18,629 nucleotides of DNA from Candidatus Zixiibacteriota bacterium (GCA_030613505.1 JAUWLW010000049.1:1-18629); one strand, 5' to 3'. Counted from the stretch's first letter, positions 257 to 15,281 are shown. The notes: generated from the sequence alone by a model not told the origin. A program made the numbers and translations.

Positions 257-904
257 TTACCGAAAGAGGGTCTTGACGCGGCCCAGGCTCGTCGGCGCAA
301 CCGCGACCATGGTGCCTATGTGTAACCTTATGCGCTGGGCTTGGCCGTAGACCGTTCCCGTGGACGACGTATGGCTATAGGAGTAGCACCGCCTTGCAAC
401 CCCGCTGGCCCGGTAGCAGTAGACGTCCCGGCCGGTGTCGCCGTTCCAGACGACCTCCATCAACAGGTTATCTTTGTTATTGTAGTTGAATTTATTAGGT
501 GTGATGTGGGTGTCAACCCAGCCGGTCCCGCTGATAGTTTCGGTTCCGGTAAAGACTTCGACCGGCGTATTCCCCGTGTAGTTGTTGGCGAAGGTAGCCT
601 CTAGTGCGGTTTTAGTAGAGTGGCAAAGCAGGATTTTGCAGTTATTGAACGAGCCGCTCTCGCCTCTGTAATTATCGAACTCGATCATGTTGATGTAACC
701 GGCGTAGTTTATGCCGCTCTGGAACCACAGGCACTGGAACCTCATGGCGTTACCGCCGCCGCCCCTCCAGGGGGCGCGATTGCCGGCAGCCCGCGTTTCG
801 AGGATGATTGCCTTCCCGGAATCCTCCGCCGTCGCGGGTGCTATCTCGGGCCCTAACGTAGCGACTACCGCGAGCGCCGTGACTATTAATACTACTTTTT
901 TCAT
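257..904 (-). CDS. Secreted protein A of the 'SLGRVK-tail' paralogue family
   Basis: A 215-aa exported protein of unknown function. A signal peptide (about residues 1-26, Lys-Lys start, hydrophobic core, ATA|ED cleavage) leads into a beta-rich body. Blocks shared with the five paralogues here are MRFQCLW near residue 53, I-N-Y-A-G, a LCHS/T block, NNYTGxTPV, a G-T-G-W strand, FNYNNxxNLLMEVxW, and the tail APTSLGRVKTLFR ending at the stop. The body resembles jelly-roll-like secreted domains that I recall only generically. Six Cys in the mature part could form disulphides. AGGAGG lies 5-8 nt before the ATG. It is monocistronic, with its own promoter and terminator. No enzymatic motif was seen. 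Confidence 0.85.
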   Translation of the reverse strand: MKKVVLIVTALAVVATLGPEIAPATAEDSGKAIILETRAAGNRAPWRGGGGNAMRFQCLWFQSGINYAGYINMIEFDNYRGESGSFNNCKILLCHSTKTALEATFANNYTGNTPVEVFTGTETISGTGWVDTHITPNKFNYNNKDNLLMEVVWNGDTGRDVYCYRASGVARRCYSYSHTSSTGTVYGQAQRIRLHIGTMVAVAPTSLGRVKTLFR

Positions 905-949
905 ATCAGCTCCTCCTTTTCAAATGACCTCTTAGATTTTATTCGTATT

Positions 950-978
950 TTTATAACACGAAAATAATAGTTTCGCAA
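950..978 (-). promoter_or_regulatory. Promoter of secreted paralogue A
   Basis: Minus strand: TTGCGA (978-973), 17-nt spacer, TATAAA (955-950), with an extended -10 (TGT before TATAAA). The same GTGTTATAA string occurs in the promoters of paralogue B and of the lipoprotein gene at 6542-6949. Confidence 0.7.
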
Positions 979-997
979 TAAAAAAGTTTACCGAAAA

Positions 998-1020
998 AAC
1001 ATTACCTAAATAGTAATGTT
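998..1020. promoter_or_regulatory. Inverted repeat upstream of the paralogue A promoter (operator-like)
   Basis: AACATTAC (998-1005) and GTAATGTT (1013-1020) form a perfect 8-bp inverted repeat with a 7-bp spacer. It ends about 20 bp upstream of the -35 element of gene A. It is AT-rich and lacks a T tract on the minus strand, so a regulator site fits better than a terminator. The rest of 1021-1078 holds nothing I recognise. Confidence 0.35.
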
Positions 1021-1078
1021 AATTTCGGGATACCGTTTCTGCCGGGTCTTGCTCGGCAACTAGCTTTTTCTAATAAGT

Positions 1079-1105
1079 AAAACGCCCCTCACGCGAGGGG
1101 CGTTT
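1079..1105 (-). terminator. Intrinsic terminator of secreted paralogue B
   Basis: The stem ACGCCCCTC/GAGGGGCGT has a short loop and is followed on the minus strand by four T (1082-1079). It lies 23 nt past the stop of the gene at 1128-1763 and is nearly the same as the terminators of A and F. Confidence 0.85.
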
Positions 1106-1127
1106 GTAGGTCGAAGTTGGGCGGTCC

Positions 1128-1763
1128 TTACCTGAAGAGGGTCTTGACGCGGCCCAGGCTCGTGGGCTCGAGGCCTATCATCGTCGCGATGGTCAACCGG
1201 ATGCGCTGGCCGTTGTTATACACCGTCCCCTGCGAGGCGTTGTGGTTGAACGCGTAGCAGCGGCTGTACGACTGGTTCGAGCGCCAGCAGCGGACGTCGT
1301 GGCCGTCGTCGGTGTCCCACCGGATCTCCATCAGCAAGTTGTTGCGGTTGTTGTAGTTGAATCGATTAGCGGTGATGCGGAGGTCGAACCACCCGGTCCC
1401 GCTGACCGCTACGCTCCGCATATTGAGGACCTGTACCGGCGTGAAACCGGTGTAGTTGTTCGCGAAGGTGCTCTCTAGCGCGGTCTTCCGGGTATGACAC
1501 AGCCAGGCGCGGACGCTGTTGAACCTGCCGCCGTCGGCGTACACTTTATCGAACTCCACGCGGTTGACGTTGCCGGCGTAGTTGATGTTTTGTTGGAACC
1601 ACAGGCATTGGAACCGCATGGAATTGCCGGACGCCCCGCGCCACGGCGCGACGGGGCGGGCCGCGCGGGCCCCGACGACGACCACTTTGCCGGAGGCGTG
1701 TGCGGCGGGCGCCAGCGCCGAGGCCGCGACCAGCGCGGCCGTTACCATTATGACCTTTTTCAT
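1128..1763 (-). CDS. Secreted protein B of the 'SLGRVK-tail' paralogue family
   Basis: A 211-aa exported protein, the closest relative of A in the window. The signal peptide is about residues 1-23 (PAAHA|SG cleavage). It shares MRFQCLWFQ, INYAG, an LCHT block, FANNYTGxTPV, SGTGWF, FNYNNxxNLLMEI and the tail EPTSLGRVKTLFR at the very C-terminus. The DNA encoding the tail is nearly identical to A. AGGAGAGG lies about 7 nt before the ATG. It is GC-richer than A, especially in the signal peptide, so the pair has diverged beyond a fresh duplication. Function unknown; a surface or matrix structural role is only a guess. Confidence 0.85.
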   Translation of the reverse strand: MKKVIMVTAALVAASALAPAAHASGKVVVVGARAARPVAPWRGASGNSMRFQCLWFQQNINYAGNVNRVEFDKVYADGGRFNSVRAWLCHTRKTALESTFANNYTGFTPVQVLNMRSVAVSGTGWFDLRITANRFNYNNRNNLLMEIRWDTDDGHDVRCWRSNQSYSRCYAFNHNASQGTVYNNGQRIRLTIATMIGLEPTSLGRVKTLFR

Positions 1764-1812
1764 AACAATACCTCTCCTTTTTTAATCAACGCGGCCTCTA
1801 CTTCCCGTAAAC

Positions 1813-1841
1813 TTTATAACACCGCCATCCCGAGTTTGCAA
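1813..1841 (-). promoter_or_regulatory. Promoter of secreted paralogue B
   Basis: Minus strand: TTGCAA (1841-1836), 17-nt spacer, TATAAA (1818-1813), with the GTGTTATAAA extended -10 shared with paralogue A. The leader to the ATG at 1763 would be about 45 nt. Confidence 0.7.
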
Positions 1842-1910
1842 TAAAAATTTAACGCGAAGTCTCGTCGGGCCGAGGGTTCCGCCGTCGGCGCGCCTTCGGT
1901 AAAATCGCCC

Positions 1911-1939
1911 TTGACCTCGCGGCGCAGGCGTTGTAAAAT
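1911..1939 (+). promoter_or_regulatory. Promoter of the ligase-ACP-kbl operon
   Basis: TTGACC (1911-1916), 17-nt spacer, TAAAAT (1934-1939). This gives a leader of roughly 75 nt before the ATG at 2021. It diverges from the paralogue B promoter about 70 bp away. Confidence 0.65.
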
Positions 1940-2020
1940 ACGCGCCCGGCCGAGACGTCCCGCGAACGGCATCGCCGTATTTCTGAAAATACCCCCCAGC
2001 TCAAGGAGAACGCGACGGCT

Positions 2021-3721
2021 ATGAGCAACATCGGCTCTTACGACGAACGACGCAAGGATTTCGACTGGGGCCAGGCCCGCGAGGAGCTGGCCTACGACGA
2101 CGCGCCCACCAAGAACATCGCCTACTTTCTCGCCGAGCGCAACTGCGAGCGCGGCCTGGGCGACAAGGTCGCCCTCATCTGGGAGAACGCCGCCGGCGAC
2201 GCCACGGAGAGGTTTACCTTCGACGAGCTGAGGCGATACAGCAACGCCTACGCCAAGCTCCTGCGCGGCCTCGGCGTCGAGCCCGGCGAGCGCGTGTGCA
2301 TCTTCATGGACAAGATTCCGGACCTGTACTTCTCGTTCGTGGGGATACTCAAGGCCGGCGCCATAGCCCAGCCGTTGTTCTCGGCCTTCCGCGAGGATTC
2401 GCTCTTCACCCGTCTGGAGAACGCCGAGACCACGGCGGTCCTCACGACGAAGAGGCTCGCCGGCCGCGTCCGCCACATCCGCGATAAGCTCCCCGCGCTC
2501 AAGCACCTCATAATCGTCGACGCCGGCGACGCCGAGCCGCGCGAGGGCGAGACCCACTTCGACGTCCACGCCGTCGGGCCGGTGGAGGAGTTCGACATCT
2601 ACCCCGCCGACGAGGAGACGCCGTCGGTCTTGCACTACACCTCCGGGACCACCGGCGCCCCCAAGGGCGCGCTCCACGTCCACGGCTCGTTGGTCGCGCA
2701 ATATATCACCGCCAAGTGGGTCCTCGACATCCGCGACGACGACGTCTACTGGTGCACCGCCGACCCGGGGTGGGTTACCGGGACGTCGTACGGCATAATC
2801 GGGCCGTGGGCGCTGGGCGCGACGCAGCTCGTCCTCGAGCTCGGCTTCATGCCCGAGCGGTGGTACGCCGCCATCGAGAAGTACAAGGTAACGGTGTGGT
2901 ACTCCGCCCCCACCGCCATACGGCTCCTTATGAAGGAGGGCGCCGATATAGTCGGACGCCACGACCTCAGCTCGCTGCGCCACCTGGTCAGCGTGGGCGA
3001 GCCGCTCAACCCGGAGGCCGTCATCTGGTCGGAGGAGGTCTACGGCCTCCCGTTCCACGACAGCTTCTGGCAGACCGAGACCGGCTCCATCGTCATCTCC
3101 AACTACCCGGGGATGCGGATTAAGCCCGGCTCGATGGGGAAACCGTTCCCGGGGATGGAGGCCGCGGTGCTGAACCCCAAGGACTTCCAGCCGGTGAAGG
3201 CCGGGACCGCGGGCCTCCTCGCGCTACGCCCCGGGTGGCCGGCGATGTTCCGCCAGTATTGGAGGAACGAGGAGACGTACAATAGCAAGTTCGTCGACGG
3301 TTGGTACATCTGCGGCGACCGCGCCACCGTGGACGAGGACGGCTACTACTGGTTCGTGGGGCGCGACGACGACGTCATCAACACGGGGGGCCACCTCGTG
3401 GGGCCGTTCGAGATCGAGTCCGCGCTGCTCGAGCACCCGGCGGTGGCGGAGTCGGCCGCGGTGGGGAAGCCGGACCCGGTGAACCTGGAGGTCGTCAAGG
3501 CCTTCGTCGCGCTCAAGCCCGGCTACGAGCCGAGCGACAAGACCAAGCTGGACATCATCAATTTCGTGCGCAAGAAGCTGTCGCCCATCGCCATGCCCCA
3601 GGAAATCGAGTTCATGGACGGCATGCCCAAGACCCGCAGCGGCAAGATTATGCGGCGGCTGCTGAAGGCCCGCGAGACGGGCGAGGAGATAGGCGATACG
3701 TCGACGCTGGAAGACGATTAG
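2021..3721 (+). CDS. AMP-forming acyl-CoA synthetase, acetyl-CoA synthetase type
   Basis: A 566-aa adenylate-forming enzyme that activates a carboxylate with ATP and transfers it to CoA (or to a carrier). The adenylation motif YTSGTTGAPKG is at residues 206-216, and WQTETG follows with Trp350 in the position that restricts the pocket to acetate or propionate in Acs enzymes. The hinge/CoA region includes DDDVINTGGHLVGPFEIE. The C-terminal catalytic Lys is Lys542 in TRSGKIMRR, the usual site of acetylation control. Length matches the short AcsA class (~570) rather than the ~650-aa E. coli form. AAGGAG lies 12 nt before the ATG. It is first in an operon, with the ACP 29 nt downstream. A ligase charging that ACP is an alternative role. 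Confidence 0.88.
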   Translation: MSNIGSYDERRKDFDWGQAREELAYDDAPTKNIAYFLAERNCERGLGDKVALIWENAAGDATERFTFDELRRYSNAYAKLLRGLGVEPGERVCIFMDKIPDLYFSFVGILKAGAIAQPLFSAFREDSLFTRLENAETTAVLTTKRLAGRVRHIRDKLPALKHLIIVDAGDAEPREGETHFDVHAVGPVEEFDIYPADEETPSVLHYTSGTTGAPKGALHVHGSLVAQYITAKWVLDIRDDDVYWCTADPGWVTGTSYGIIGPWALGATQLVLELGFMPERWYAAIEKYKVTVWYSAPTAIRLLMKEGADIVGRHDLSSLRHLVSVGEPLNPEAVIWSEEVYGLPFHDSFWQTETGSIVISNYPGMRIKPGSMGKPFPGMEAAVLNPKDFQPVKAGTAGLLALRPGWPAMFRQYWRNEETYNSKFVDGWYICGDRATVDEDGYYWFVGRDDDVINTGGHLVGPFEIESALLEHPAVAESAAVGKPDPVNLEVVKAFVALKPGYEPSDKTKLDIINFVRKKLSPIAMPQEIEFMDGMPKTRSGKIMRRLLKARETGEEIGDTSTLEDD

Positions 3722-3750
3722 TTAATAATTCATAACTAAAGGAGCAGCGT

Positions 3751-4005
3751 ATGGCCGACGAGATCAAGGACAAGATCCGCGAATACGTCGTCGACGAGTA
3801 CGTCGAGGAAGGGGAAGAAATAGAGGTCAAGGACGATACCCCCCTCATCACGGGCGGCCTGGTGGACTCGTTCTCGATGGTTTCGCTCAAGCTCTTCCTC
3901 GAGACCGAGTACAATATTAAGATCCCGGACGAGAGGGCGACGGCCGAGGCTTTCGACACCTTGAACGCCATAGCCGCGCTGGTCCGCGAGTACAAGGACG
4001 CGTAA
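3751..4005 (+). CDS. Free-standing acyl carrier protein (phosphopantetheine-binding)
   Basis: An 84-aa acidic protein with the phosphopantetheine attachment motif LVDSFSMVSL, where Ser40 is the expected prosthetic site. Helical segments on both sides and the IKIPDERAT-x-E-x-F block are typical of the carrier fold. The DSF (not DSL) motif is more like dedicated carriers paired with adenylating enzymes than like the fatty-acid AcpP. AAAGGAG precedes the ATG by 6 nt. It sits between an AMP-forming ligase and an alpha-oxoamine synthase, 42 nt before kbl, so those two enzymes are its likely partners. What it carries cannot be read from the sequence. Confidence 0.9.
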   Translation: MADEIKDKIREYVVDEYVEEGEEIEVKDDTPLITGGLVDSFSMVSLKLFLETEYNIKIPDERATAEAFDTLNAIAALVREYKDA

Positions 4006-4047
4006 AGAATCGGCGCCGCCGCGAATTTTTTAGCTTAGGAGGATGCG

Positions 4048-5295
4048 ATGGCTTACGGAACCGCCGCCCGCGAGTTCTACCAGAACGAGCTGGTCGGGAT
4101 TCGCAACGACGGCCTCTTCAAGGAAGAACGCTACATCATAACTCCCCAGGGAGCGGACATCGAGGTGGAGTTCCCCGAGGGCGCCCCGGTCAAGAAGGTC
4201 GTCAACATGTGCGCCAACAACTACCTCGGCCTCTCCAGTCACCCGGACGTGGTGGCCGCCGCCCACGACGGCCTGAACGCCAAGGGCTACGGCATGTCGT
4301 CGGTGCGCTTCATCTGCGGCACCCAGGACACCCACCGCGAGCTCGAGCGCAAGTTGTCGGATTTCCTCGGCACCGAGGACACGCTGCTGTTCGCGTCCTG
4401 CATGGACGCCAACGCCGCGCTGTTCGAGGTCACGCTGACGCCGGAGGACGTCGTCATCGCCGACCGGCTGGTCCACGCCTCCGTCATCGACGGCATCAAG
4501 CTGTGCGACGCCCAGTACGACTCCTACAAGCACATGGACATGAAGCACCTGGAGAAGAAGCTGGAGCAGTTCGCCGACAAGCGCCTCCGCATGGTCGCCA
4601 CCGACGGCGTCTTCTCCATGGACGGCGACGTCGCGCCGCTGGGCGAGATATGCGACCTGGCCGACAAGTACGACGCCATGGTGATGGTGGACGACTCGCA
4701 CTCCTCGGGCTTTATGGGCAAGACCGGCCGCGGCACCCACGAGCACTGCGGCGTGGTGGGCCGCGTAGACGTCATCACCACCACCATGGGCAAGGCGCTG
4801 GGCGGCGCCTCCGGCGGCTGTATCTCGGGGCCCAAGGAGCTCGTCGAGCTCTGCCGCCAGCGCGCCCGGCCCTACCTCTTCTCCAATACCCTCGCGCCGG
4901 TGGTCGTCTCCGCCTCGCTCAAGGTGATGGACATCATCTCGGCGACCACCGAACGCCGCGATAAGCTGGAGGAGAACACGCTCTACTTCCGCGAGCAGAT
5001 AACCGCCGCCGGCTTCGACATCCGCCCCGGCGTACATCCCATCGTCCCCATCATGCTCTACAACGCCAAGCTGGCCCAGGACGTCGCCCGCGAACTCTAC
5101 GAGGAGGGCATCTACGTCGTCGGCTTCTTCTTCCCGGTCGTCCCCAAGGGCCAGGCCCGCATCCGCGTCCAGCTCTCCGCCGCCCACGAGAGGGAACACA
5201 TCGACGCCGCCATCGCCGCCTTCAAGAAGATCGGCGAGAAGTACGGCATCCTGGGCCTCGGTAAGAAGGAGATTATAGACAAGTACGGGATGTAG
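4048..5295 (+). CDS. kbl: Glycine C-acetyltransferase (2-amino-3-ketobutyrate CoA ligase)
   Basis: A 415-aa PLP-dependent alpha-oxoamine synthase. It cleaves 2-amino-3-oxobutyrate with CoA to glycine and acetyl-CoA, the second step of threonine breakdown after Tdh. From memory it closely follows E. coli Kbl throughout: CANNYLGL, SVRFICGTQDTH, FASCMDAN, VHASVIDG, ATDGVFSMDG, DDSHSSGF, the Schiff-base Lys249 in TTTMGKALGG, RPYLFSNTLAP and ARIRVQLSAAH. The C-terminus carries an extra ~15 residues (GLGKKEIIDKYGM) compared with E. coli. AGGAGG is 5 nt before the ATG. It is last in the operon with ligase and ACP and is followed by a terminator. A degraded copy of its 3' end occurs at 6372-6461. Confidence 0.95.
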   Translation: MAYGTAAREFYQNELVGIRNDGLFKEERYIITPQGADIEVEFPEGAPVKKVVNMCANNYLGLSSHPDVVAAAHDGLNAKGYGMSSVRFICGTQDTHRELERKLSDFLGTEDTLLFASCMDANAALFEVTLTPEDVVIADRLVHASVIDGIKLCDAQYDSYKHMDMKHLEKKLEQFADKRLRMVATDGVFSMDGDVAPLGEICDLADKYDAMVMVDDSHSSGFMGKTGRGTHEHCGVVGRVDVITTTMGKALGGASGGCISGPKELVELCRQRARPYLFSNTLAPVVVSASLKVMDIISATTERRDKLEENTLYFREQITAAGFDIRPGVHPIVPIMLYNAKLAQDVARELYEEGIYVVGFFFPVVPKGQARIRVQLSAAHEREHIDAAIAAFKKIGEKYGILGLGKKEIIDKYGM

Positions 5296-5316
5296 GGTAA
5301 AACCCCTTACGAAACG

Positions 5317-5345
5317 AAAGGCGGCCCCGCGAGGCCGCCTTTTTA
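5317..5345 (+). terminator. Intrinsic terminator of the ligase-ACP-kbl operon
   Basis: The perfect stem AGGCGGCC/GGCCGCCT with a short loop is followed by TTTTT. It lies 22 nt past the kbl stop. Confidence 0.9.
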
Positions 5346-5409
5346 AGTCGTCTCCGGTTTATTCGGCGAGAAAAGAAACCGCGCCGGCTCGAGCGCCGCC
5401 GGCTGCCCC

Positions 5410-5452
5410 TATAATAAAAAGCTTGACAATACGCTTCCGTTAATACTACTTT
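5410..5452 (+). promoter_or_regulatory. Probable promoter region of secreted paralogue C
   Basis: There is a perfect TATAAT at 5410-5415 without a convincing -35. There is also a perfect TTGACA at 5423-5428 with only TACTTT at 18 nt (5447-5452) as a -10. Either could serve, and I cannot decide between them. The other ~150 bases between the kbl terminator and gene C hold nothing else I recognise. Confidence 0.4.
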
Positions 5453-5525
5453 ACGACGTATCTGTGCTCGCAAGAGGTTGGGGAACGAAGTTAATAAGCC
5501 TTTTAACCACAAGGAGGCGTGAATG

Positions 5526-6167
5526 ATGAAACGGTGGGGAATGCTTATCTTAATCGTCGCGCTGACGCTGGGCGTCGCGGCCTCGGCGTTGGCGAGCGGC
5601 AGGCGGATAAACTGCTATTCGCCGCAGTCGAACCACCTCTGTCCGTTCTGGGGTGCCTCTTACAGCGGCATGCGGTTCCAGACCAACATCGAGCAGTCCC
5701 GCATACGATACGCCGGTTCCATCAACGAGGTGGAATACTACAATTTCAACGGCGCCTTGGGCCGGTACAATAACTACCGCGTCTACCTGTGCCACACCAC
5801 CAGGACGAACCTCTCCACGATTTTCGGCGTCAACTACTACGCGGCGCCGGTGCTGGTCGCTTCCCGCAGCGCCTTCACCATCCCGGGCGCTCGCGGTTGG
5901 TTCGGCCTCAAGATGACGCGTAAATACGCGTACGACAACGTACGGCACCTGCTCATCGAGATCCGCTGGGAGGGCGACAACGCCGTGAGCGTACCCATTT
6001 ACATCAACAACCCGTTGTCGGGCAACCGCCGCGTTTGGGCCGTCAACGACCCGAACGCCCCCAGCGGCCGCGGCGACGGCCACCCCTACTACACCCGCCT
6101 GAACTTCGTCTACTATACCGCCGTGGAACCGACGAGCTTGGGCCGCGTCAAGGCCATGTACGAATAG
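5526..6167 (+). CDS. Secreted protein C of the 'SLGRVK-tail' paralogue family
   Basis: A 213-aa exported protein. The signal peptide is about residues 1-23 (ASALA|SG). Family blocks are visible: G-A-S-Y-S-G-M-R-F-Q, IRYAGSINEVEYYNFNG, YLCHTTRTNL, FGVNYYAAPVLV, GWFGLKM, YDNVRHLLIEIRWEGDN, and the tail EPTSLGRVKAMYE. The tail ends in Tyr-Glu, as in D, not Phe-Arg. Two ATG codons abut (5523, 5526); I chose the second because the paralogues begin M-K-[KR] and it lies 8 nt from AAGGAGG, though the first is possible. Gene and terminator resemble D over the whole unit, including the bases between stop and hairpin, so C and D share a duplication. Function unknown. Confidence 0.85.
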   Translation: MKRWGMLILIVALTLGVAASALASGRRINCYSPQSNHLCPFWGASYSGMRFQTNIEQSRIRYAGSINEVEYYNFNGALGRYNNYRVYLCHTTRTNLSTIFGVNYYAAPVLVASRSAFTIPGARGWFGLKMTRKYAYDNVRHLLIEIRWEGDNAVSVPIYINNPLSGNRRVWAVNDPNAPSGRGDGHPYYTRLNFVYYTAVEPTSLGRVKAMYE

Positions 6168-6187
6168 TTTAACTTGACCCTCTCGAA

Positions 6188-6214
6188 AACCCCGCCCCCC
6201 GGCGGGGTTTTTTC
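6188..6214 (+). terminator. Intrinsic terminator of secreted paralogue C
   Basis: The stem ACCCCGCC/GGCGGGGT is followed by T6. It is very similar to the terminator after paralogue D at 8109-8135. Confidence 0.9.
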
Positions 6215-6289
6215 ATTTTGCCTTAAATTAGCAGTAATAAAAATCCGCTTCTAGCGCGAGAGGGGCGTTTCGCGTCTCCGTATAGGCCG

Positions 6290-6325
6290 TTACTTGAAGA
6301 CCGGTTTTACGCGGCCCGGGCCGGT
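6290..6325 (-). pseudogene. Decayed 3' stub of an SLGRVK-tail paralogue
   Basis: The minus strand reads TGPGRVKPVFK-stop, matching PTSLGRVKSIFK-stop of paralogue E. The bases after the stop (…GGGGCGTTTCG on the plus strand) also align with the region between the stop and the terminator of E. No matching body lies upstream. Confidence 0.65.
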
Positions 6326-6350
6326 TTCCCCGGACCGTAGTCAGCGCCGC

Positions 6351-6381
6351 AGCCGCCACGCGGGGAAGCCCTCGGCCGTCG
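6351..6381 (-). pseudogene. Fragment of the 3' end of the GT-C glycosyltransferase gene
   Basis: 28 of 31 bases match the end of the gene at 9826-11295 (aligned from 9830). On the minus strand it would read T-A-E-G-F-P-A-W-R-L, against M-A-E-G-F-A-V-W-R-L in the intact protein. The intact gene's stop codon is not conserved here. Confidence 0.6.
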
Positions 6382-6461
6382 CGGCCTTCGCCGAGGCATA
6401 CGAAAAGTACGACATCCTCGCCAAGTCTATGTACGACATTGCCGAGAAATACGGCCTTTAA
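6372..6461 (+). pseudogene. Decayed 3' stub of a kbl-like gene
   Basis: The frame ending at the TAA at 6459-6461 aligns without gaps to the last 29 residues of Kbl. It reads A-A-F-x4-E-K-Y-x-I-L-x6-I-x2-K-Y-G-[LM]-stop, with about 13 of 29 identical and further conservative changes. It includes the C-terminal extension that E. coli Kbl lacks. A GC-rich terminator follows, as after kbl. There is no start codon or body, so it is a remnant and not a gene. Confidence 0.6.
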
Positions 6462-6479
6462 CCGCAGATGATTATTTCG

Positions 6480-6505
6480 GAGGGCGGCCGCAAGGCCGCC
6501 CTTTT
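6480..6505 (+). terminator. Terminator after the kbl-like stub
   Basis: The stem AGGGCGGCC/GGCCGCCCT with loop GCAA is followed by TTTT. It resembles the terminator after intact kbl (5317-5345). No intact plus-strand gene now precedes it. Confidence 0.75.
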
Positions 6506-6541
6506 CCAGTTTTAAACGGTTAAAAGGTAATTTAATTTACC

Positions 6542-6949
6542 TTATTGATACTTCCATACCGTAATATGGGTCCTAAAAGGAGGTGTCCACCCGAACCCGG
6601 CTGACTCGCCCCAAGGTTGGCCGTTCTTACGGCCTTTTACTATGAGGGCAGCCCCTTCGGGCGGGTCGCTACCTGTCGAGGTACAATTGTAAAAACCGTT
6701 GCCTTGGACCGGATCCCAATGCGAAATAGCCGTATTGAATACTTGTTCTCCGGCGTAGTAAACTTTGCAGGTTACGTCGTTTTCTGGGTTCATCGGGTCC
6801 ATGCAAAAACCCGACACGCCTCCAGGTGGTATGTCGTCGTTTAAAGTTACCGGGCCAGTAACGTCGTCGTCCATCTGGCAGCCCAGGAAACCGGATAAGG
6901 CGATAACAGCGATCCCGCATAAACTTGCGTTACGAATTCCTTTCTTCAT
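6542..6949 (-). CDS. Small lipoprotein of unknown function
   Basis: A 135-aa protein with an N-terminal signal ending in a lipobox-like F-L-G-C. Cys24 would be lipidated, followed by an acidic stretch (QMDDDVTG) as a flexible tether. Phe at -3 is less usual than Leu. The mature part has three more Cys, a VYYAGEQVFN segment and a C-terminal VWKYQ; I recognise no family. The ATG has AGGAGG 7 nt upstream. It stands alone, with no clear terminator right after the stop, and has an operator-like palindrome in its promoter. GC content is lower than that of the neighbouring operons, a possible sign of separate origin. Confidence 0.75.
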   Translation of the reverse strand: MKKGIRNASLCGIAVIALSGFLGCQMDDDVTGPVTLNDDIPPGGVSGFCMDPMNPENDVTCKVYYAGEQVFNTAISHWDPVQGNGFYNCTSTGSDPPEGAALIVKGRKNGQPWGESAGFGWTPPFRTHITVWKYQ

Positions 6950-6983
6950 TTGTTAACCTCCTTTTTTAGGTTAAAATCGCTTT

Positions 6984-6989
6984 CTTATA
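6984..6989 (-). promoter_or_regulatory. Extended -10 element of the lipoprotein gene
   Basis: The minus strand reads TGTGTTATAAG: TATAAG preceded by TGT, the same GTGTTATAA string found at paralogues A and B. The -35 position (7012-7007, CAGATT) is poor and lies inside the palindrome at 7000-7016, so the promoter may depend on a regulator. Confidence 0.5.
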
Positions 6990-6999
6990 ACACAAACCC

Positions 7000-7016
7000 C
7001 TGACAGAATCTGTCAG
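7000..7016. promoter_or_regulatory. Operator-like perfect palindrome over the lipoprotein promoter
   Basis: CTGACAGAATCTGTCAG is a perfect 8-bp inverted repeat around one central base. It starts 10 bp upstream of the -10 element and covers the -35 position, the classic placement for a dimeric repressor or activator. Confidence 0.6.
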
Positions 7017-7223
7017 TTTTAGGGCCGCGGGAACGATAATTCTTTACCTCCTGGAAACGTGGTTTTAGAAGAATATTTTTAGTATTATAGTACGCCCGTC
7101 GTTTTGAGGATTTCCCTCCTTTTAACTAAAACGTTGATTAACCCTCGGTAACGTCGCGAATCAAACCGGACAACCGACTCGCAAAGGCCACTTATTTGGG
7201 TTTATCTCGAGCCGTAAGCAAAC
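7017..7223. other. Gene-free stretch upstream of the lipoprotein gene
   Basis: No coding signal. On the minus strand there are two ribosome-site-like strings (AGGAGG at 7052-7047, AGGAGGG at 7120-7114) with no open frame after them, and an isolated TATAAT (7089-7084) without a -35. They may be worn 5' ends of lost family members, but this is only a guess. Confidence 0.3.
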
Positions 7224-7305
7224 AAACGCCCCCCTTCCGGGGGGCGTTTCGTGCTTCGGTAGGTGCGGTTTACTTGAAGATGGACTTTACGCGGCCCAGG
7301 CTCGT
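7224..7305. repeat. Direct repeat, left copy (3' end plus terminator of paralogue E)
   Basis: 80 of 82 bases are identical to 8165-8246, in the same orientation, 941 bp apart. It contains a full copy of E's terminator hairpin (7224-7249, minus) and the codons for the last residues of the family tail. Confidence 0.95.
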
Positions 7306-7314
7306 GGGCCGTAT
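7270..7314 (-). pseudogene. Stub of a second paralogue-E copy (tail only)
   Basis: The minus strand reads IRPTSLGRVKSIFK-stop, identical in the tail to paralogue E, but an in-frame TAG lies directly upstream and no body is present. The tail is undamaged, so the truncation is recent compared with the stub at 6290. Confidence 0.85.
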
Positions 7315-7347
7315 CTACGGCATCGCAAAATTCGCCCCCGAAAAACG

Positions 7348-7376
7348 TTGACTAACTTTCCGGCATAGCGTAAAAT
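7348..7376 (+). promoter_or_regulatory. Promoter of secreted paralogue D
   Basis: TTGACT (7348-7353), 17-nt spacer, TAAAAT (7371-7376). The leader to the ATG at 7457 would be about 75 nt. Confidence 0.7.
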
Positions 7377-7456
7377 GGGTTAATAAAAGAGTCGGCGGTT
7401 CCGTCGGCTCAGTTAGGGATGGTTCCTTACGTTAGACCCATAGTAGGAGGTAAGTG

Positions 7457-8092
7457 ATGAAACGTTCCGTAGTTTTTATCTTGGCTGTCGCCCTTACGTT
7501 GGGCGTCGCCTCGCTGGTTTTTGCCCACGGTAAGCAGGTTACCGTTACCATCGGTTCCGGGGGAAACGTAATCCCGTGGTGGCCTTCCTTTTTCCCTACC
7601 GGCACCCGCGTACAGATGCTCTACGACCAGAGTAGGATTAATTACGCCGGCACCATCAACGAGTTTGAGCTCGAAAAAACCTCGACGGCCACGGGTACTT
7701 TCACCAACGTTAAGTTCTACCTGTGCCATACCAAATTATCCGCGTTGACTACGAACTTCAGTAATAACTACAGCGGCACCCCCGTACTGGTAGCCTCGTC
7801 CGCTTCCTACGTCGTCCCGGCCCGAACCGGGTTTTACCCGATACCGATGACTACGACCTTCAAATACAATAATACGGACAACCTAATCTTAGAAATAAGC
7901 TGGGTACGGGGTTCGGGGTCCTCTTGTGCCCTCCGATGCGGTAGCCTTACCGCGCACCGGTTGTGGGCCCGAAGCCCGACGGCGTCGACGGGGAGCGTGG
8001 ATGGCGTAGGCTACAACGGCCGGATTTCGTTCTCTTATTACACGGCGGTATCGCCAACCAGCTTAGGCCGCGTCAAGGCCATGTACGAATAG
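7457..8092 (+). CDS. Secreted protein D of the 'SLGRVK-tail' paralogue family
   Basis: A 211-aa exported protein. The signal peptide is about residues 1-24 (VFA|HG). Family blocks are IPWWPSFFPTGTRVQMLYDQ, INYAGTINEFELEK, FYLCHTKLSAL, FSNNYSGTPVLV, FKYNNTDNLILEISW and the tail SPTSLGRVKAMYE. I start it at the ATG at 7457, 6 nt after AGGAGG, rather than the adjoining GTG at 7454, which would be only 3 nt away. It has its own promoter and terminator. It lies between the two copies of an 82-bp direct repeat, so the whole transcription unit could be lost by recombination. It is AT-richer than B. Function unknown. Confidence 0.85.
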   Translation: MKRSVVFILAVALTLGVASLVFAHGKQVTVTIGSGGNVIPWWPSFFPTGTRVQMLYDQSRINYAGTINEFELEKTSTATGTFTNVKFYLCHTKLSALTTNFSNNYSGTPVLVASSASYVVPARTGFYPIPMTTTFKYNNTDNLILEISWVRGSGSSCALRCGSLTAHRLWARSPTASTGSVDGVGYNGRISFSYYTAVSPTSLGRVKAMYE

Positions 8093-8108
8093 CTTAATAT
8101 AGCCCTCG

Positions 8109-8135
8109 AAAACCCCGCCGCCCGGCGGGGTTTTT
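8109..8135 (+). terminator. Intrinsic terminator of secreted paralogue D
   Basis: The stem AACCCCGCC/GGCGGGGTT is followed by T5. It is nearly the same as the terminator of paralogue C. Confidence 0.9.
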
Positions 8136-8162
8136 ATTTGTACCGAAAGGGGAGCCGCAAAT

Positions 8163-8190
8163 AAAAACGCCCCCCTTCCGGGGGGCGTTT
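8163..8190 (-). terminator. Intrinsic terminator of secreted paralogue E
   Basis: The stem AACGCCCCCC/GGGGGGCGTT with loop TTCC is followed on the minus strand by five T (8167-8163). It is convergent with the terminator of D about 30 bp away. Confidence 0.9.
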
Positions 8191-8246
8191 CGTGCTTCGG
8201 TAGGTGCGGTTTACTTGAAGATGGACTTCACGCGGCCCAGGCTTGT
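8165..8246. repeat. Direct repeat, right copy (in situ 3' end of paralogue E)
   Basis: This is the functional copy of the repeat at 7224-7305 (80/82 identical). It covers E's terminator, the gap and the last 12 codons of gene E. Confidence 0.95.
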
Positions 8247-8849
8247 CGGCGCGACGCCGACGTAGCCGATGGTGATGCGGCCGCGCTGGTCGTAGTTGGT
8301 GGTAACGGACCCGCTCGAGGCGGTCGCGTTATACGCCCATATACGGCCGTGCGAGCCGCGCGAGTTGATCTGGAAGTCGGAGCGGCTGCCGGAACCGCTG
8401 GTCCAGGAAACCTCTATGAGGAGGTTGTAGGTCCGGTTATAAGTGAAGTTCGTCGGCTCAACTATCGTGAACCAGGTACTTCCGCCCATCGCCGGGATTA
8501 CTTTAGTACCGCTGAATACGGTTACGGGTGTTTGGCCGCCGTAGTTGGCCACGAAGTTCGTGGTGACGTGCGTAAGGGTCGTATGGCTGAGCAGGATTTT
8601 ACACCCAGTGAAGGTGCTCGGCGTTCTAATCCCGCCTGTATAGGATATGAGCTCAACCTTGGATACCGCGCCCGCTTCCGTAATATTGCTCTTGTCCCAG
8701 ATCGTCTGCCACCTCATCGCGGCCTGGGCCGCCCAGAACGGAATGGTGTTCCCGCCTGTGTTCCCGCCGCCGACGAGGAACACGCCGGCGCTGGCTGCGG
8801 TGGCCGTCGCGACGACGAGCGCCAGCGTTAACAACGCGTACTTTTTCAT
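8211..8849 (-). CDS. Secreted protein E of the 'SLGRVK-tail' paralogue family
   Basis: A 212-aa exported protein. The signal peptide is about residues 1-21 (ASA|GV). Family blocks are NTIPFWAAQAAMRWQTIW, an LLSHTTLTHV block in place of LCHT, FVANYGGQTPVTVF, FTYNRTYNLLIEVSW and the tail APTSLGRVKSIFK. It has only one Cys, unlike A, B and F, so the Cys pattern is not conserved. I start it at the ATG at 8849 (GGAGG 6 nt upstream) and not at the adjoining TTG. It is the source of, or sister to, the truncated copies at 7270 and probably 6290. Function unknown. Confidence 0.85.
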   Translation of the reverse strand: MKKYALLTLALVVATATAASAGVFLVGGGNTGGNTIPFWAAQAAMRWQTIWDKSNITEAGAVSKVELISYTGGIRTPSTFTGCKILLSHTTLTHVTTNFVANYGGQTPVTVFSGTKVIPAMGGSTWFTIVEPTNFTYNRTYNLLIEVSWTSGSGSRSDFQINSRGSHGRIWAYNATASSGSVTTNYDQRGRITIGYVGVAPTSLGRVKSIFK

Positions 8850-8901
8850 CAAATTCCTCCTTTAGTAACAAACGCTTTTGCGTGTAGTCTATAGGTTTTG
8901 G

Positions 8902-8930
8902 AGTTAAACATAGTTATTTTAGAATTGCAA
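8902..8930 (-). promoter_or_regulatory. Weak candidate promoter of secreted paralogue E
   Basis: Minus strand TTGCAA (8930-8925) then 17 nt then TTAACT (8907-8902). The -35 is like that of paralogue B but the -10 matches at only three positions. Confidence 0.3.
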
Positions 8931-8954
8931 CAAAAAAATAAAGGCCCCGGGGCC
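8931..8954 (-). terminator. Possible second minus-strand terminator between E and F
   Basis: GGCCCCGGGGCC (8943-8954) is self-complementary and is followed on the minus strand by TTTATTTTTTT. Gene F already has a terminator at 9013-9044, so this may be the leftover of another lost 3' end. The loop would be very tight. Confidence 0.35.
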
Positions 8955-9012
8955 GGGTAATTTGATGGGCGGACCCTTACGTGACCGCCGCCGCCGCCCC
9001 GCGTCGGCTACG

Positions 9013-9044
9013 AAAAAACGCCCCTCCCAAGCGAGAGGGGCGTT
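9013..9044 (-). terminator. Intrinsic terminator of secreted paralogue F
   Basis: The stem AACGCCCCTC/GAGGGGCGTT is followed on the minus strand by six T (9018-9013). Confidence 0.9.
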
Positions 9045-9069
9045 CTCAAATTGAGGCGTTTTACCGGTA

Positions 9070-9708
9070 CTACCGGAAAAGCGTTTTTACGCGGCCCAGG
9101 CTCGAAGGCGTAACGCCGGTCATGGTCCCGATGTGGAGGCGGATGCATTGGCCCGACCTTTGGACGGAGCCCGAGGAAGCGGTATGGCTCCACGCGTAAA
9201 CGCGGCCGGTACTGGCGGCCGACCGCCAGCAGGCGATATTGGTCCGGCTACTGCCATTCCACCGGACCTCCATAAGTAAGTTATCGGAGTTATTATAGTT
9301 GAACTTGTCGGGTGTTATGCCTATGTCGAAATAGCCGGAGCCGGTAAAAGCGAGGTCGCCGCCGGTACGGACCTGGACCGGCGTTTTGCCGGTATAATTG
9401 TTATTAAACGTGCTTTCTAACTGGGTCTTGGTGGAGTGGCATAGCCAGACGCGGACGTCGTTGTACGTGCCGGAAAGCGTGCTGCTCTTCTCGAACTCAA
9501 CGACGTTTATGTAACCGGCGGTGTTAATGTCGCTTTTTAACCATAGGCACTGAAACCGGCACGAACTGTAGGAGGCTCCCCACCAGGGTATAACATTGCC
9601 CGCGGCGTGGGTCCCGATGGTTACTACCTTGCCGTGGTCCTCGGCCGCCGCCGGCGCGAAGCTCAACGCGACGGCTAGAGCCGTAGTTACGAGTAACGCT
9701 TTCTTCAT
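9070..9708 (-). CDS. Secreted protein F of the 'SLGRVK-tail' paralogue family
   Basis: A 212-aa exported protein closest to A and B. The signal peptide is about residues 1-22 (PAAA|ED). It shares NVIPWWGASYSSCRFQCLW, INTAGYINVVEFEKS, VWLCHSTKTQLESTF, NNYTGKTPVQV, GSGYFDIGIT, FNYNNSDNLLMEVRW and HIGTM with A. The tail is TPSSLGRVKTLFR, the only member with Ser in place of Thr at the second position. GGAGG with a T-free spacer lies 7 nt before the ATG. It is monocistronic, with its own promoter and terminator. Function unknown. Confidence 0.85.
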   Translation of the reverse strand: MKKALLVTTALAVALSFAPAAAEDHGKVVTIGTHAAGNVIPWWGASYSSCRFQCLWLKSDINTAGYINVVEFEKSSTLSGTYNDVRVWLCHSTKTQLESTFNNNYTGKTPVQVRTGGDLAFTGSGYFDIGITPDKFNYNNSDNLLMEVRWNGSSRTNIACWRSAASTGRVYAWSHTASSGSVQRSGQCIRLHIGTMTGVTPSSLGRVKTLFR

Positions 9709-11702: not shown

Positions 11703-12305
11703 TTACAGATAAACGCCGATTCCGGCCGTAATTTCGACCACGTCCGGGTGGCCGTCGCGGTAGTAGAAGCCGTCGTTCATGTCCCAAAAAGCTAGTTGGT
11801 CGCCCGCGATCGTCACGTACCGGGGGGAAAACTCGGCGTAAACTTTATCGGTAACTCGGGCCCGGACCCCCGCTCCCCACAGGGCGAGAACGTGTACCGT
11901 GTTCGGATAATCTAGCTCCCGCCACAAAACGCCGGCCTTATTAATTTCGTACATTACGCCGACGCCCGCCACCGCGTACGTATACAGGCGCCAAATCCGA
12001 GTTCCTACGGTCAGCGCCGCGGTAGTCGGTATTTGGATCCGCTCGTCGGGCGGGAAATATTCCGGGATCCAGATTCCGTCCCTGTCGCTTTCCGCGCTCG
12101 CCGCGACGGCGAACTCCGCGGCGAACGGCTCCCGGAAGTGCCACGCCAATTTTGCGCCGCCGCCGTGGCTCACCCCGCCGAATCCGTCGAAGTAATCGTA
12201 ATCCGGGGAGGTGTTGAGCCGGTAGTAGCCGGCTACGCCGACGTCCCCGCCCGAGGCCGCGGCCGCGAACGCGAGCAGGAGGAATAATATGTTTATTTTT
12301 TTCAT
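11703..12305 (-). CDS. Outer-membrane beta-barrel-like protein 3 of the operon
   Basis: A 200-aa exported protein. The signal peptide is about residues 1-18 (K-K start, LLLAFAAAASG). The mature part alternates polar and hydrophobic residues and is rich in Gly, Tyr and Trp, as in small eight-stranded barrels. It ends in VEITAGIGVYL, a final strand suited to barrel insertion. It is clearly paralogous to the next gene upstream: both have GGGAxxxWxFxxPxxAEFAVAASA, a F[FP]P-x6-[QL]-[IL]P[TV]TAALT block, ALWGAG/GIWGAGxR, EFSPRY and a DGHxD near the end. AAGGGGA lies 9 nt before the ATG. It starts 16 nt after the preceding gene. Function unknown. Confidence 0.75.
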   Translation of the reverse strand: MKKINILFLLLAFAAAASGGDVGVAGYYRLNTSPDYDYFDGFGGVSHGGGAKLAWHFREPFAAEFAVAASAESDRDGIWIPEYFPPDERIQIPTTAALTVGTRIWRLYTYAVAGVGVMYEINKAGVLWRELDYPNTVHVLALWGAGVRARVTDKVYAEFSPRYVTIAGDQLAFWDMNDGFYYRDGHPDVVEITAGIGVYL

Positions 12306-12321
12306 GTCCGTCCCCTTAGCG

Positions 12322-12918
12322 TTAGAGGGTAAAACCCGCTCCCAAGAACAACGTTATTTTGTCCGCATGCCCGTCGCTGTAATGGCGGTCGTCGCCGGCC
12401 TCCGTCGATAGGAGTTCTTTCCCTCCGAGGTGGAAGTAGCGGGGCGAGAATTCGACGTAGAACCTGCCCGGCAGCTGTACGCGAATCCCCGCGCCCCATA
12501 TCCCCAGCGGGCCCGTTTCCAGTACGGGTTCGACTTCCGCCTCGGCGAAGCGGTATCGCTCTACGTATAAGCCGCCGCCGGCCAGCGCGTAAAAGGTTAC
12601 CGGCCCGAGGTCCGCGGCGCTGGTGAGGGCCGCGGTGACCGGAAGCTGGAGTCGGTGCGCGGGGAAAAAGTGGCTCGGCGGGACCCGTAGGTAGGGTTTA
12701 CGGTCCGTGGCGCTCGCCGCGACGGCGAACTCCGCGCCTAGGGGGCCGAAGAAGTCCCACGTTATTATCGCCCCGCCGCCCTGCGCCGCCCGCTCGAAGT
12801 CGTAGTAGCGATTTACGAGGGCGACGTCGCCTTGATAAAACGCGCCGATGCGGAAGTTCCGCGCTTCCGCGCCTAACGCCGCGGGCACGAGCAAAAGTAA
12901 AAGAAACGCCCTGGGCAA
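12322..12918 (-). CDS. Outer-membrane beta-barrel-like protein 2 of the operon
   Basis: A 198-aa exported protein and tandem paralogue of the 11703-12305 product (shared GGGAIITWDFFGPLGAEF, IWGAGIRVQ, FYVEFSPRY). The signal peptide is about residues 1-17 (LLLLLVPAALGA). I start it at TTG 12918, 8 nt after AGGAGG. The in-frame GTG at 12927 overlaps the ribosome site and is unlikely. The C-terminal strand KITLFLGAGFTL fits an outer-membrane protein. The ribosome site lies in the 18-nt gap after the stop of the gene before it, which indicates an operon. No catalytic motif. Size and strand pattern fit an eight-stranded barrel, but no named family was recognised. Confidence 0.72.
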   Translation of the reverse strand: MPRAFLLLLLVPAALGAEARNFRIGAFYQGDVALVNRYYDFERAAQGGGAIITWDFFGPLGAEFAVAASATDRKPYLRVPPSHFFPAHRLQLPVTAALTSAADLGPVTFYALAGGGLYVERYRFAEAEVEPVLETGPLGIWGAGIRVQLPGRFYVEFSPRYFHLGGKELLSTEAGDDRHYSDGHADKITLFLGAGFTL

Positions 12919-12936
12919 TTCCGACACCTCCTCTCT

Positions 12937-13583: not shown

Positions 13584-15281
13584 TCAACGCGTCACTACGA
13601 ACATCGTGCTGAGGCCCTGACCGCCGGCCGTCAACGCCGCGACGTAGCACCCCGGCGCGAGACGGCTTGTCTCGAGCACTAAAGCGTTCGAGCCGGCGGC
13701 GGCAGGAGCCGTAGCGGAGGCAACGCGCCGGCCCGTAATGTCGTACGTGTCGACCGCCGCGGCCGCCGGCGCTTTCTGCCGCCACGCCACCCGCAGCGAG
13801 CCGCGGCACGGGTTGGGCGAAACGCTCAGGCTCGAGATGAATCGCCTCGCCTCGCCGACGGCGGCGCGGGCCGTCCCCAGCGCCAGCGCGTAACCGGTGC
13901 CGGTCCGGCCCTCCAGCTTGTACGCGTAATCCCCCGGCAGCGGCGTCTCGTCGCAATATTCGAAGGGGCGGCGGCCTACGATGGGGGCGTCGTTTACGCG
14001 CCGCCAGCTCGTTTCCGCCGGCGACCGCCGGTAGAGGTCGAAGTGGTCGAACCCGCCGACGGCTTCGCCGTCCCACCACAACTTCACGGCCCCGGGCGCC
14101 GACCGGGCGACGAAGGTCACGCCTCCCACCGGCACCTCGCTCAACGGCAGCCGTTGGACGCACACTTTGCCCGGGCTTTGGGCGTAGGCCACCGCGACTT
14201 CGCGGCTTGTGACCGCCGGCGACGCCAGCGTGGAGTCGGCCTCGGGCGTTCGGCTCACGCGCCCCGCCGCGCTCCACGCGCCGCCGAACAGCGAGCCGAA
14301 GTAAATTTCGTGACGGGAGGTCTCCCGGTTGTCCTCCCAAAAGGTCAACAGCTGGCCGGTGGGGGCCAGCGCGACGTTGGGGTGGTAGGCCCGGCCGCCG
14401 CCGTCGTAGAGGATGTGTTCCGGCCCCCAACCGCCGCCGCGGTCCGCCATCTCCCAGATGGCCGGGTTGCCGGTGCGCTTGTCCATAAACAGCAGGCGAA
14501 GCACGCCGTCGCCGTCGACGGCCAGGCGGGGGTGGAACGTCGGCGCCGGGTCGTACGTCAGGCGGCGCGTCGGCGTCCAGCGCGAGCCGTCGTGCGTGCG
14601 CTCGTAGACCTCGAACTCGCCGGTGCTGTCGTCCCGCCACACCAGCCGGATCCGGCCCTGGAAGTAGGCCATCGACGGCATCCAGCTTCCGTTCTCGCCG
14701 GTGGTTTCGGAAAGACGGACCGGCGGCTCGAGACCCTGCGTGGCCCGGCGCCAGACGGTGAACCAGATGTGCGCCGGCCGGCCGGTTACGCGCTCGCCCA
14801 CCATGGCCAACGCCACGTCGCCCGAGGGCAGCGCCAAGGGCGACGGCTGCCCGAACCGCCACCCCTGTTCGACGACGTATTCGGGCAGGCCCCATCGGCC
14901 GGCATCGTCCCCCACGCGGTGGCATATCGCGCTGCCGGCCTTGAAGAAGGCGTGCAGCTCGCCGCGGGTGTCGGCGATTATGGCGGCGTCCCGGCCTCCC
15001 TGCTCGTCCAGGCGATACGACGGCCCCCACCGCCCCGCGGCGCGGTCGTAGCGGCGGTAGAAGGCCGCTGCCCCTTCGGTTTCGAAGAAGACGGCGTGGA
15101 GGTTCCCGGAGCGGTCGGCGACGAGGGCCCGGGCGAAGTTGTAGCACGTACGCCACTCGCCCGCCGGCGGCGATATCGTCTCCGGCGGCGACCACCCGGC
15201 GAACGCGGGAAGCGCGGCCGCCGCTCCGGCGAAGGCCCGAAGAACGTATCCGGCCACCTTCGTGTGCCGGCTGGGACGCAT
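13584..15281 (-). CDS. Secreted beta-propeller protein with Fn3-like and T9SS-like C-terminal domains
   Basis: A 565-aa exported protein. The signal peptide is about residues 1-28 (AAAALPAFAG). Residues ~30-380 hold repeated strands of the D-x-x-G-x-L-H-x-x-F type (ADRSGNLHAVFFE, ADTRGELHAFFK, VDGDGVLRLLFMDKR, LAPTGQLLTFWEDNR), as in sialidase/BNR-like propellers. Residues ~385-470 look like a fibronectin-III domain (FDHFDLYRRS, YAYKLEGRTGTGYA). Residues 485-565 match the type IX secretion / FlgD-like C-terminal domain: SVSPNPCRGSLRVAW, VDTYDITGRRVAS, L-APGCYVAALTAGG. No sialidase catalytic set was identified, so an adhesin or binding role is as likely as an enzyme. It is first in the operon with three barrel proteins. 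The predicted mRNA is leaderless. Confidence 0.8.
   Translation of the reverse strand: MRPSRHTKVAGYVLRAFAGAAAALPAFAGWSPPETISPPAGEWRTCYNFARALVADRSGNLHAVFFETEGAAAFYRRYDRAAGRWGPSYRLDEQGGRDAAIIADTRGELHAFFKAGSAICHRVGDDAGRWGLPEYVVEQGWRFGQPSPLALPSGDVALAMVGERVTGRPAHIWFTVWRRATQGLEPPVRLSETTGENGSWMPSMAYFQGRIRLVWRDDSTGEFEVYERTHDGSRWTPTRRLTYDPAPTFHPRLAVDGDGVLRLLFMDKRTGNPAIWEMADRGGGWGPEHILYDGGGRAYHPNVALAPTGQLLTFWEDNRETSRHEIYFGSLFGGAWSAAGRVSRTPEADSTLASPAVTSREVAVAYAQSPGKVCVQRLPLSEVPVGGVTFVARSAPGAVKLWWDGEAVGGFDHFDLYRRSPAETSWRRVNDAPIVGRRPFEYCDETPLPGDYAYKLEGRTGTGYALALGTARAAVGEARRFISSLSVSPNPCRGSLRVAWRQKAPAAAAVDTYDITGRRVASATAPAAAGSNALVLETSRLAPGCYVAALTAGGQGLSTMFVVTR

Follow-up and report, generated by a model that had tools for sequence, protein, structure and literature searches.

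A short C-terminal tail as a candidate sorting signal of exported proteins in Candidatus Zixiibacteriota and other uncultured phyla

The window, an 18,629-nucleotide stretch of DNA from a Candidatus Zixiibacteriota bacterium (GCA_030613505.1, JAUWLW010000049.1), carries six paralogous genes, A to F, within 9.5 kb on both strands (Table 1). As the preliminary description held, the ORFs are present at these places and all six begin with signal peptides; the start codon lies at 5523 or 5526 in gene C and at 7454 or 7457 in gene D. All of the proteins end in the pattern P-[ST]-S-L-G-R-V-K-x-[LMI]-[FY]-[REK]-stop. This tail had been described as more conserved than the body, and the alignments bear this out: the bodies are 34–56% identical to that of gene A, whereas the last 12 residues are 58–100% identical in pairwise comparisons among the six genes. 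Among 48 members of the window's family, collected from several genomes, only P40, R50, N103, S202 and G204 are invariant, and two of these five lie in the tail. A Pfam scan of the family gave no credible match, and an Rfam search of the window gave no matches. Three tail subtypes (A/B/F, C/D and E) can be distinguished within one genome-wide consensus, A-L-[FY]-[RK]. The subtypes track the paralogue lineages, and the earlier suggestion that they mark different partners found no support.

Table 1. Tail-bearing genes, tail remnants and a type A-like protein in the window (nucleotide positions from its first letter).
Feature	Position	Strand	Tail and its position	Remarks
Gene A	257..904	-	PTSLGRVKTLFR, codons 257-295 including stop	signal peptide, beta-sandwich body, tail
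Gene B	1128..1763	-	PTSLGRVKTLFR, 1128-1166	layout as gene A; protein modelled
Gene C	5526..6167	+	PTSLGRVKAMYE, 6129-6167	
Gene D	7457..8092	+	PTSLGRVKAMYE, 8054-8092	
Gene E	8211..8849	-	PTSLGRVKSIFK, 8211-8249	
Gene F	9070..9708	-	PSSLGRVKTLFR, 9070-9108	
Seventh tail copy	7270..7314	-	IRPTSLGRVKSIFK-stop, stop at 7270	with terminator, no body; decayed remnant
Possible older tail remnant	6293..6325	-	TGPGRVKPVFK	lies behind gene C on the other strand; weak tblastn match (E 0.22)
Large exported protein	13584..15281	-		type A-like CTD (residues ~487-562); sub-threshold profile matches

A G+C hairpin begins 16–25 nt past the stop codon in each of the six genes, in agreement with the proposal that every gene has its own terminator. 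A terminator specific to the tail was considered and dropped, because the terminators are diverse and ordinary. Promoters had been ascribed to most of the genes; consensus matches are somewhat more frequent than chance (9 observed versus 3.3 ± 2.0 expected), and in this form the claim is a weak one. The seventh copy of the tail is a decayed remnant without a gene: positions 7209–7309 are 92% identical over 101 bp to positions 8152–8250 at the 3' end of gene E, through both tail and terminator.

A separate observation concerns the wider family to which the six genes belong. Eleven full-length copies in the host genome contain one in-frame UGA, as do copies from ten further genomes of its phylum. 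Where the copies are aligned, the UGA falls in the same column, within a C-G-x-U or C-U motif, and is followed by conserved protein. In 34 distinct genes, the UGA precedes a hairpin that spans the residues R-x-Q-[loop]-L-x-L and has at most 9 bp, and its pairing (7.47 of 9, as compared to 7.06 ± 0.09 in synonymous shuffles) was reached by none of 2000 shuffles. A tRNA-SeC with the UCA anticodon is present in genomes G000–G003. The six window copies have neither Sec nor its Cys, and no selenoprotein model was seen in an NCBIfam scan of the UGA-bearing proteins. Given the conserved UGA, the covarying hairpin and the tRNA, a part of the window's family apparently constitutes an undescribed family of secreted selenoproteins.

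In an AlphaFold model of the gene B protein, based on the 48-sequence alignment, residues 24–194 form a CBM-like sandwich with pLDDT mostly above 94, and residues 195–211 (pLDDT 44–69) are flexible with a short helix; the tail itself lies at pLDDT 44–52. A structure search with the body gave as best matches the polymer-binding parts of carbohydrate esterases (7tog, Z ~11, 3.4 Å over 154 residues), and the best Foldseek matches had E values of ~4e-4. The modelled body thus points only to a common sandwich or CBM-like arrangement. A second tail family, with 41 members, was modelled as an all-beta, propeller-like fold, with a pLDDT of 45–47 over its last 14 residues. The low pLDDT of the tail behind two different modelled folds suggests that it is a flexible peptide carried by different folds, and no folded Ig-like C-terminal domain was found at the tail end in the models of the two families.

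A degenerate DNA pattern of the tail, anchored at the stop codon, matched the 2.86-Mb host genome 158 times, as compared to once for a reversed control, and a stricter pattern gave 155 matches versus none. From stretches fetched from this genome, we recovered 144 tail ends. A crude signal-peptide test was passed by 102 of the 132 full-length ORFs, many of the failures being short, split, recoded or wrongly started. In 400 kb away from the matches, chosen to be tail-poor, the 307 called genes included one further tail, again on an exported protein; the periplasmic TPR proteins, lipoproteins and barrels of this sample had no tail, and the C-terminal segments of a few large exported proteins resemble type A CTDs by eye. 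The tail is used by small one-domain modules of 160–370 residues, and several of the larger proteins seen bear a conventional type A CTD. Beyond the window, the tail thus marks some 150 exported proteins of this genome, and the same kind of tail is also found in other phyla.

Stripped of signal peptides and tails, the bodies fall into 17 clusters (41, 34, 22, 12, 4 and 3 members, with singletons, some of them fragments). Pfam assigned NHL/SGL propellers, YCF48-like, MAM, CBM96 and Beta_helix domains, and other bodies were unassigned. A dozen or more mutually unrelated bodies carry the tail; among them are CBM-like sandwiches, proteins with MAM or CBM96 domains, NHL propellers and a second family of propellers. 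No model of the tail was present among the families that the Pfam and NCBIfam scans listed for the tail proteins, and a literature search with the tail motif strings returned no matching paper.

The consensus of the tail is [AG]-V-x-P-[AT]-S-[LVF]-G-[RK]-[VI]-[KR]-A-L-[FY]-[RK]-COOH. Conservation jumps at position -14 (V) and continues to the final residue at the stop. The invariance of S, G and K in the recovered set arises because the search pattern itself fixes these residues; in the unforced alignment of the window's family, S and G are invariant and position -5 is K or R. Near the C-terminus, position -5 is thus basic, and the last residue is basic in most tails. The last 25 residues of the tail proteins contain no hydrophobic stretch of the membrane-helix type.

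The strict pattern occurred at least five times in 25 of 386 genomes, in which the controls gave no match. Ten of these tail-rich genomes belong to the host's phylum (5–163 matches) and 15 to eight families elsewhere (11–52). Outside the phylum, the tail mostly takes the form [ST]-W-G-x-[IV]-K-x-[LM]-[FY]-R and is borne by exported propellers, beta-helices and sandwich-like bodies; within the phylum, the SLGRVK and SWGxIK forms are both found on the window's family. SprA (TIGR04189) was detected in all 25 tail-rich genomes, against a background of 124 of 372 genomes (about one third) outside the phylum. For the 15 of 15 SprA-positive tail-rich genomes outside the phylum, the hypergeometric probability is 4e-8, or ~1.5e-4 when they are taken as eight independent families (8 of 8), and both figures, per genome or per family, leave shared ancestry in. 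The PorV family was present in 11 of 11 tail-rich genomes tested, with 10 copies in the host genome. The host SprA is divergent, scoring 313 bits with TIGR04189 and yet giving no Pfam match at 0.01. Many SprA-positive genomes, such as G016, G019 and G074, are without the tail, and G116 and G227 each have a single tail-like end and no SprA match.

The genomic context and one protein family further suggest a link between the tail and the T9SS. Next to sprA, in divergent orientation, lies an NHL tail gene in both G000 and G003; in G000, sprA is followed by MotA/TolQ-like and ExbD-like genes. An exported FN3-like protein, present in single copy, has the ending TWGSIKAMFR or the corresponding ALFR form in G014, G020, G064 and G087, all of which are SprA-positive, and the DNA encoding this ending is also present in further SprA-positive genomes. 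Behind a related FN3-like domain in G087 lies, as judged by eye, a type A-like CTD instead of the tail. The occurrence of FN3-like bodies with either ending suggests that the two signals swap. The window itself encodes a large exported protein with such a CTD, which scores 24.1 bits with PF18962 (cut-off 27) and 18.1 with TIGR04183 (cut-off 23), both under the curated cut-offs; another protein of the host genome scores over the type A cut-off.

We consider the tail to be a proteome-wide C-terminal sorting signal, with a probability of about 0.93. The sorting, anchoring or docking role suggested in the preliminary description is thereby supported, and both of the refutations that it named fail. 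One of these was that synonymous sites in the tail would be as conserved as protein sites, as under pure gene conversion. In a wider form of this reading, the likeness would be functionless and produced by gene conversion or by the copying of a 3' cassette of tail and terminator. The geneless copy that is 92% identical to the end of gene E favors such copying, as does a tendency, over few codons, for the tails of the six window genes to show less synonymous change than their bodies. However, 24 identical SLGRVKALFR tails are encoded by 22 DNA sequences, with serine specified by both TCN and AGY and with codon use near that of the bodies, indicating that the tail is maintained by selection on the protein and not by gene conversion; moreover, the terminators differ and the tails recur in other phyla. 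As a general explanation, copying is thus refuted and retains very little probability, but the tail-plus-terminator copy seen in the window leaves it a small local role, in which it may spread tails. The other refutation was that the tail is just the final strand of a single known domain. It does come after a beta-rich body, but NHL propellers share it with sandwiches and with MAM and CBM96 proteins, and it is disordered in both models; the chance that this reading is correct is practically nil. It is also quite improbable that the tail serves envelope quality control as a C-terminal degron or protease tag. Periplasmic proteases read hydrophobic C-termini, but the constant basic residues and the S-x-G core do not suit such a role, nor does the presence of the tail across large arrays of paralogous exported proteins that are otherwise ordinary, or its lack in the sampled periplasmic TPR proteins and lipoproteins.

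A possible, though rather doubtful, alternative is that the tail docks or anchors its proteins independently of the T9SS: an outer-membrane or periplasmic receptor would bind the free C-terminus and hold the proteins on a shared scaffold (coat, fibre or peptidoglycan), with SprA present by ancestry. The exact C-terminal position, the basic-hydrophobic free end and the flexible linker would suit a peptide-receptor pair, and with a type A-like CTD in the same genome the T9SS has no obvious need for a second signal. The absence of the tail from many SprA-positive genomes fits an optional class of signals, and equally an unrelated receptor. On the other hand, every tail-rich genome has SprA, FN3-like bodies bear either signal, and tail genes adjoin sprA in two genomes. 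On balance we lean towards the T9SS as the reader of the tail. We base this on co-occurrence and synteny, on a single instance of swapped signals, and on the analogy to motif E. This link is correlative, and we infer the recognition of the tail, its receptor and the surface location of its bearers. With somewhat greater confidence, we regard the tail as a likely undescribed minimal sorting code of ~14 unfolded residues with its own receptor in several uncultured phyla, representing either a fourth class of T9SS signals or a separate surface-assembly pathway.

In the mechanism that we propose, Sec would export the tail proteins, whose bodies would fold on the periplasmic side. At the SprA channel of the T9SS, a shuttle of the PorV family would recognise the flexible tail and its free C-terminus, and the protein would then be moved to the cell surface and probably kept there. 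The tail would thus stand in for motif E of the known T9SS CTDs, their final strand that bears the lysine, without an Ig-like fold.

Since a sorting signal predicts the destination of a protein, the tail would inform on ~150 proteins of one genome, most of which have no known role. It would label roughly 5% of the proteome in the host's genus and 11–52 proteins per tail-rich genome outside the phylum, and would in this way delimit, in a single step, the surface proteome of several uncultured phyla. If the T9SS reads it, the tail would be the smallest known T9SS signal and a probe of what the channel and shuttles recognise, and the system would work with a different code outside Bacteroidota.

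The tail invites comparison with several known C-terminal signals. The resemblance of SLGxxK to an encapsulin cargo peptide was ruled out as an explanation because the tail proteins are exported. PEP-CTERM and LPXTG are, like the tail, short C-terminal motifs found by genome-wide pattern on many unrelated exported proteins. In those signals, however, the motif is joined by a transmembrane helix and a basic terminus, and a membrane enzyme cleaves them; a tripartite reading of this kind was rejected because the tail has no hydrophobic helix. Type B (TIGR04131) and type C CTDs are alternative signals for the T9SS channel, as the tail may be. Those of type B use their own PorP/SprF shuttles (PMC12618676); both types comprise ~100 residues with several motifs, and no sequence match to the tail was seen.

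The closest counterpart is the type A CTD (PF18962/TIGR04183). Both signals are C-terminal on Sec-exported proteins of many folds, occur in genomes with SprA and the PorV family, and come after a similar FN3-like domain, in one genome in the case of the type A CTD. They differ in build, the type A CTD being an Ig-like sandwich of 70–80 residues and the tail ~14 residues, unfolded in the models, with an S-x-G core. For 81 tail proteins, neither PF18962 nor TIGR04183 was among the 25 families listed per library, any others matching at most one member each. Known CTDs of ~70–100 residues are described as restricted to Bacteroidota (PMC10202324, PMC10994853, PMC11285876, PMC11969387), and the shortest T9SS signals described, in Prevotella intermedia, have 40–55 residues and three strands (PMC11969387). 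Motif B, which RgpB needs (PMC11969387), is absent from the tail. In the type A CTD, the last 13 residues and the motif-E lysines are required, and in HBP35 the last 22 residues are sufficient (PMC10202324); a lysine near the C-terminus is almost invariant in T9SS CTDs (PMC10994853), and it is this last, lysine-bearing part of the CTD that the tail may correspond to.

Elsewhere in the source genome, the family of the six exported window genes is apparently an undescribed family of secreted selenoproteins. These copies carry a single in-frame UGA at a fixed column, within a C-G-x-U or C-U motif, with a covarying hairpin directly 3' of it, and the same genome encodes a tRNA-Sec. Selenocysteine is absent from the window copies. 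Among the scanned tail proteins, the Omp28-related selenoprotein model NF045500 matched one protein weakly, possibly the 534-residue protein listed below.

Coordinates of the features (G000, source genome; other G-numbers, further genomes; C, contigs; L, stretches examined)
Feature	Location	Remark
Selenoprotein-family copies	G000:C56:28021-33239; C56:11729, 17404, 18053; C38:3877; C7:37379	
Selenoprotein-family copies, further loci	L064-L070, L090-L094	
534-residue tail protein	L140:320-1924 (G000:C60)	no UGA of its own
Tail-plus-terminator remnants	window 7209-7314, 6293-6325	gene-less
Barrel-like proteins	window 11703-12927	two, small, outer-membrane type, adjacent
FN3-like tail protein	L197-L200	G014, G020, G064, G087
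PorV-family matches, examples	G000:C95:10912-11739; C83:1533; others	
sprA locus	L160:2312-10762 (G000:C76)	

The two remnants in the window look as if the 3' end had been copied as a cassette. The barrel-like proteins lack the tail and adjoin the window's large exported protein, whose C-terminal domain resembles the conventional T9SS type A.

Unrelated SprA-positive genomes each have one copy of an exported FN3-like protein, some 140 residues long, that ends in TWGSIKAMFR or ALFR; in G064, a PorV-family gene lies near it. The source genome has ten PorV-family matches, several within larger ORFs, and these proteins are possible dedicated shuttles. After its sprA come two MotA/TolQ-like genes, one ExbD/TolR-like gene and an additional short gene, perhaps encoding a T9SS motor built differently from GldL/GldM.
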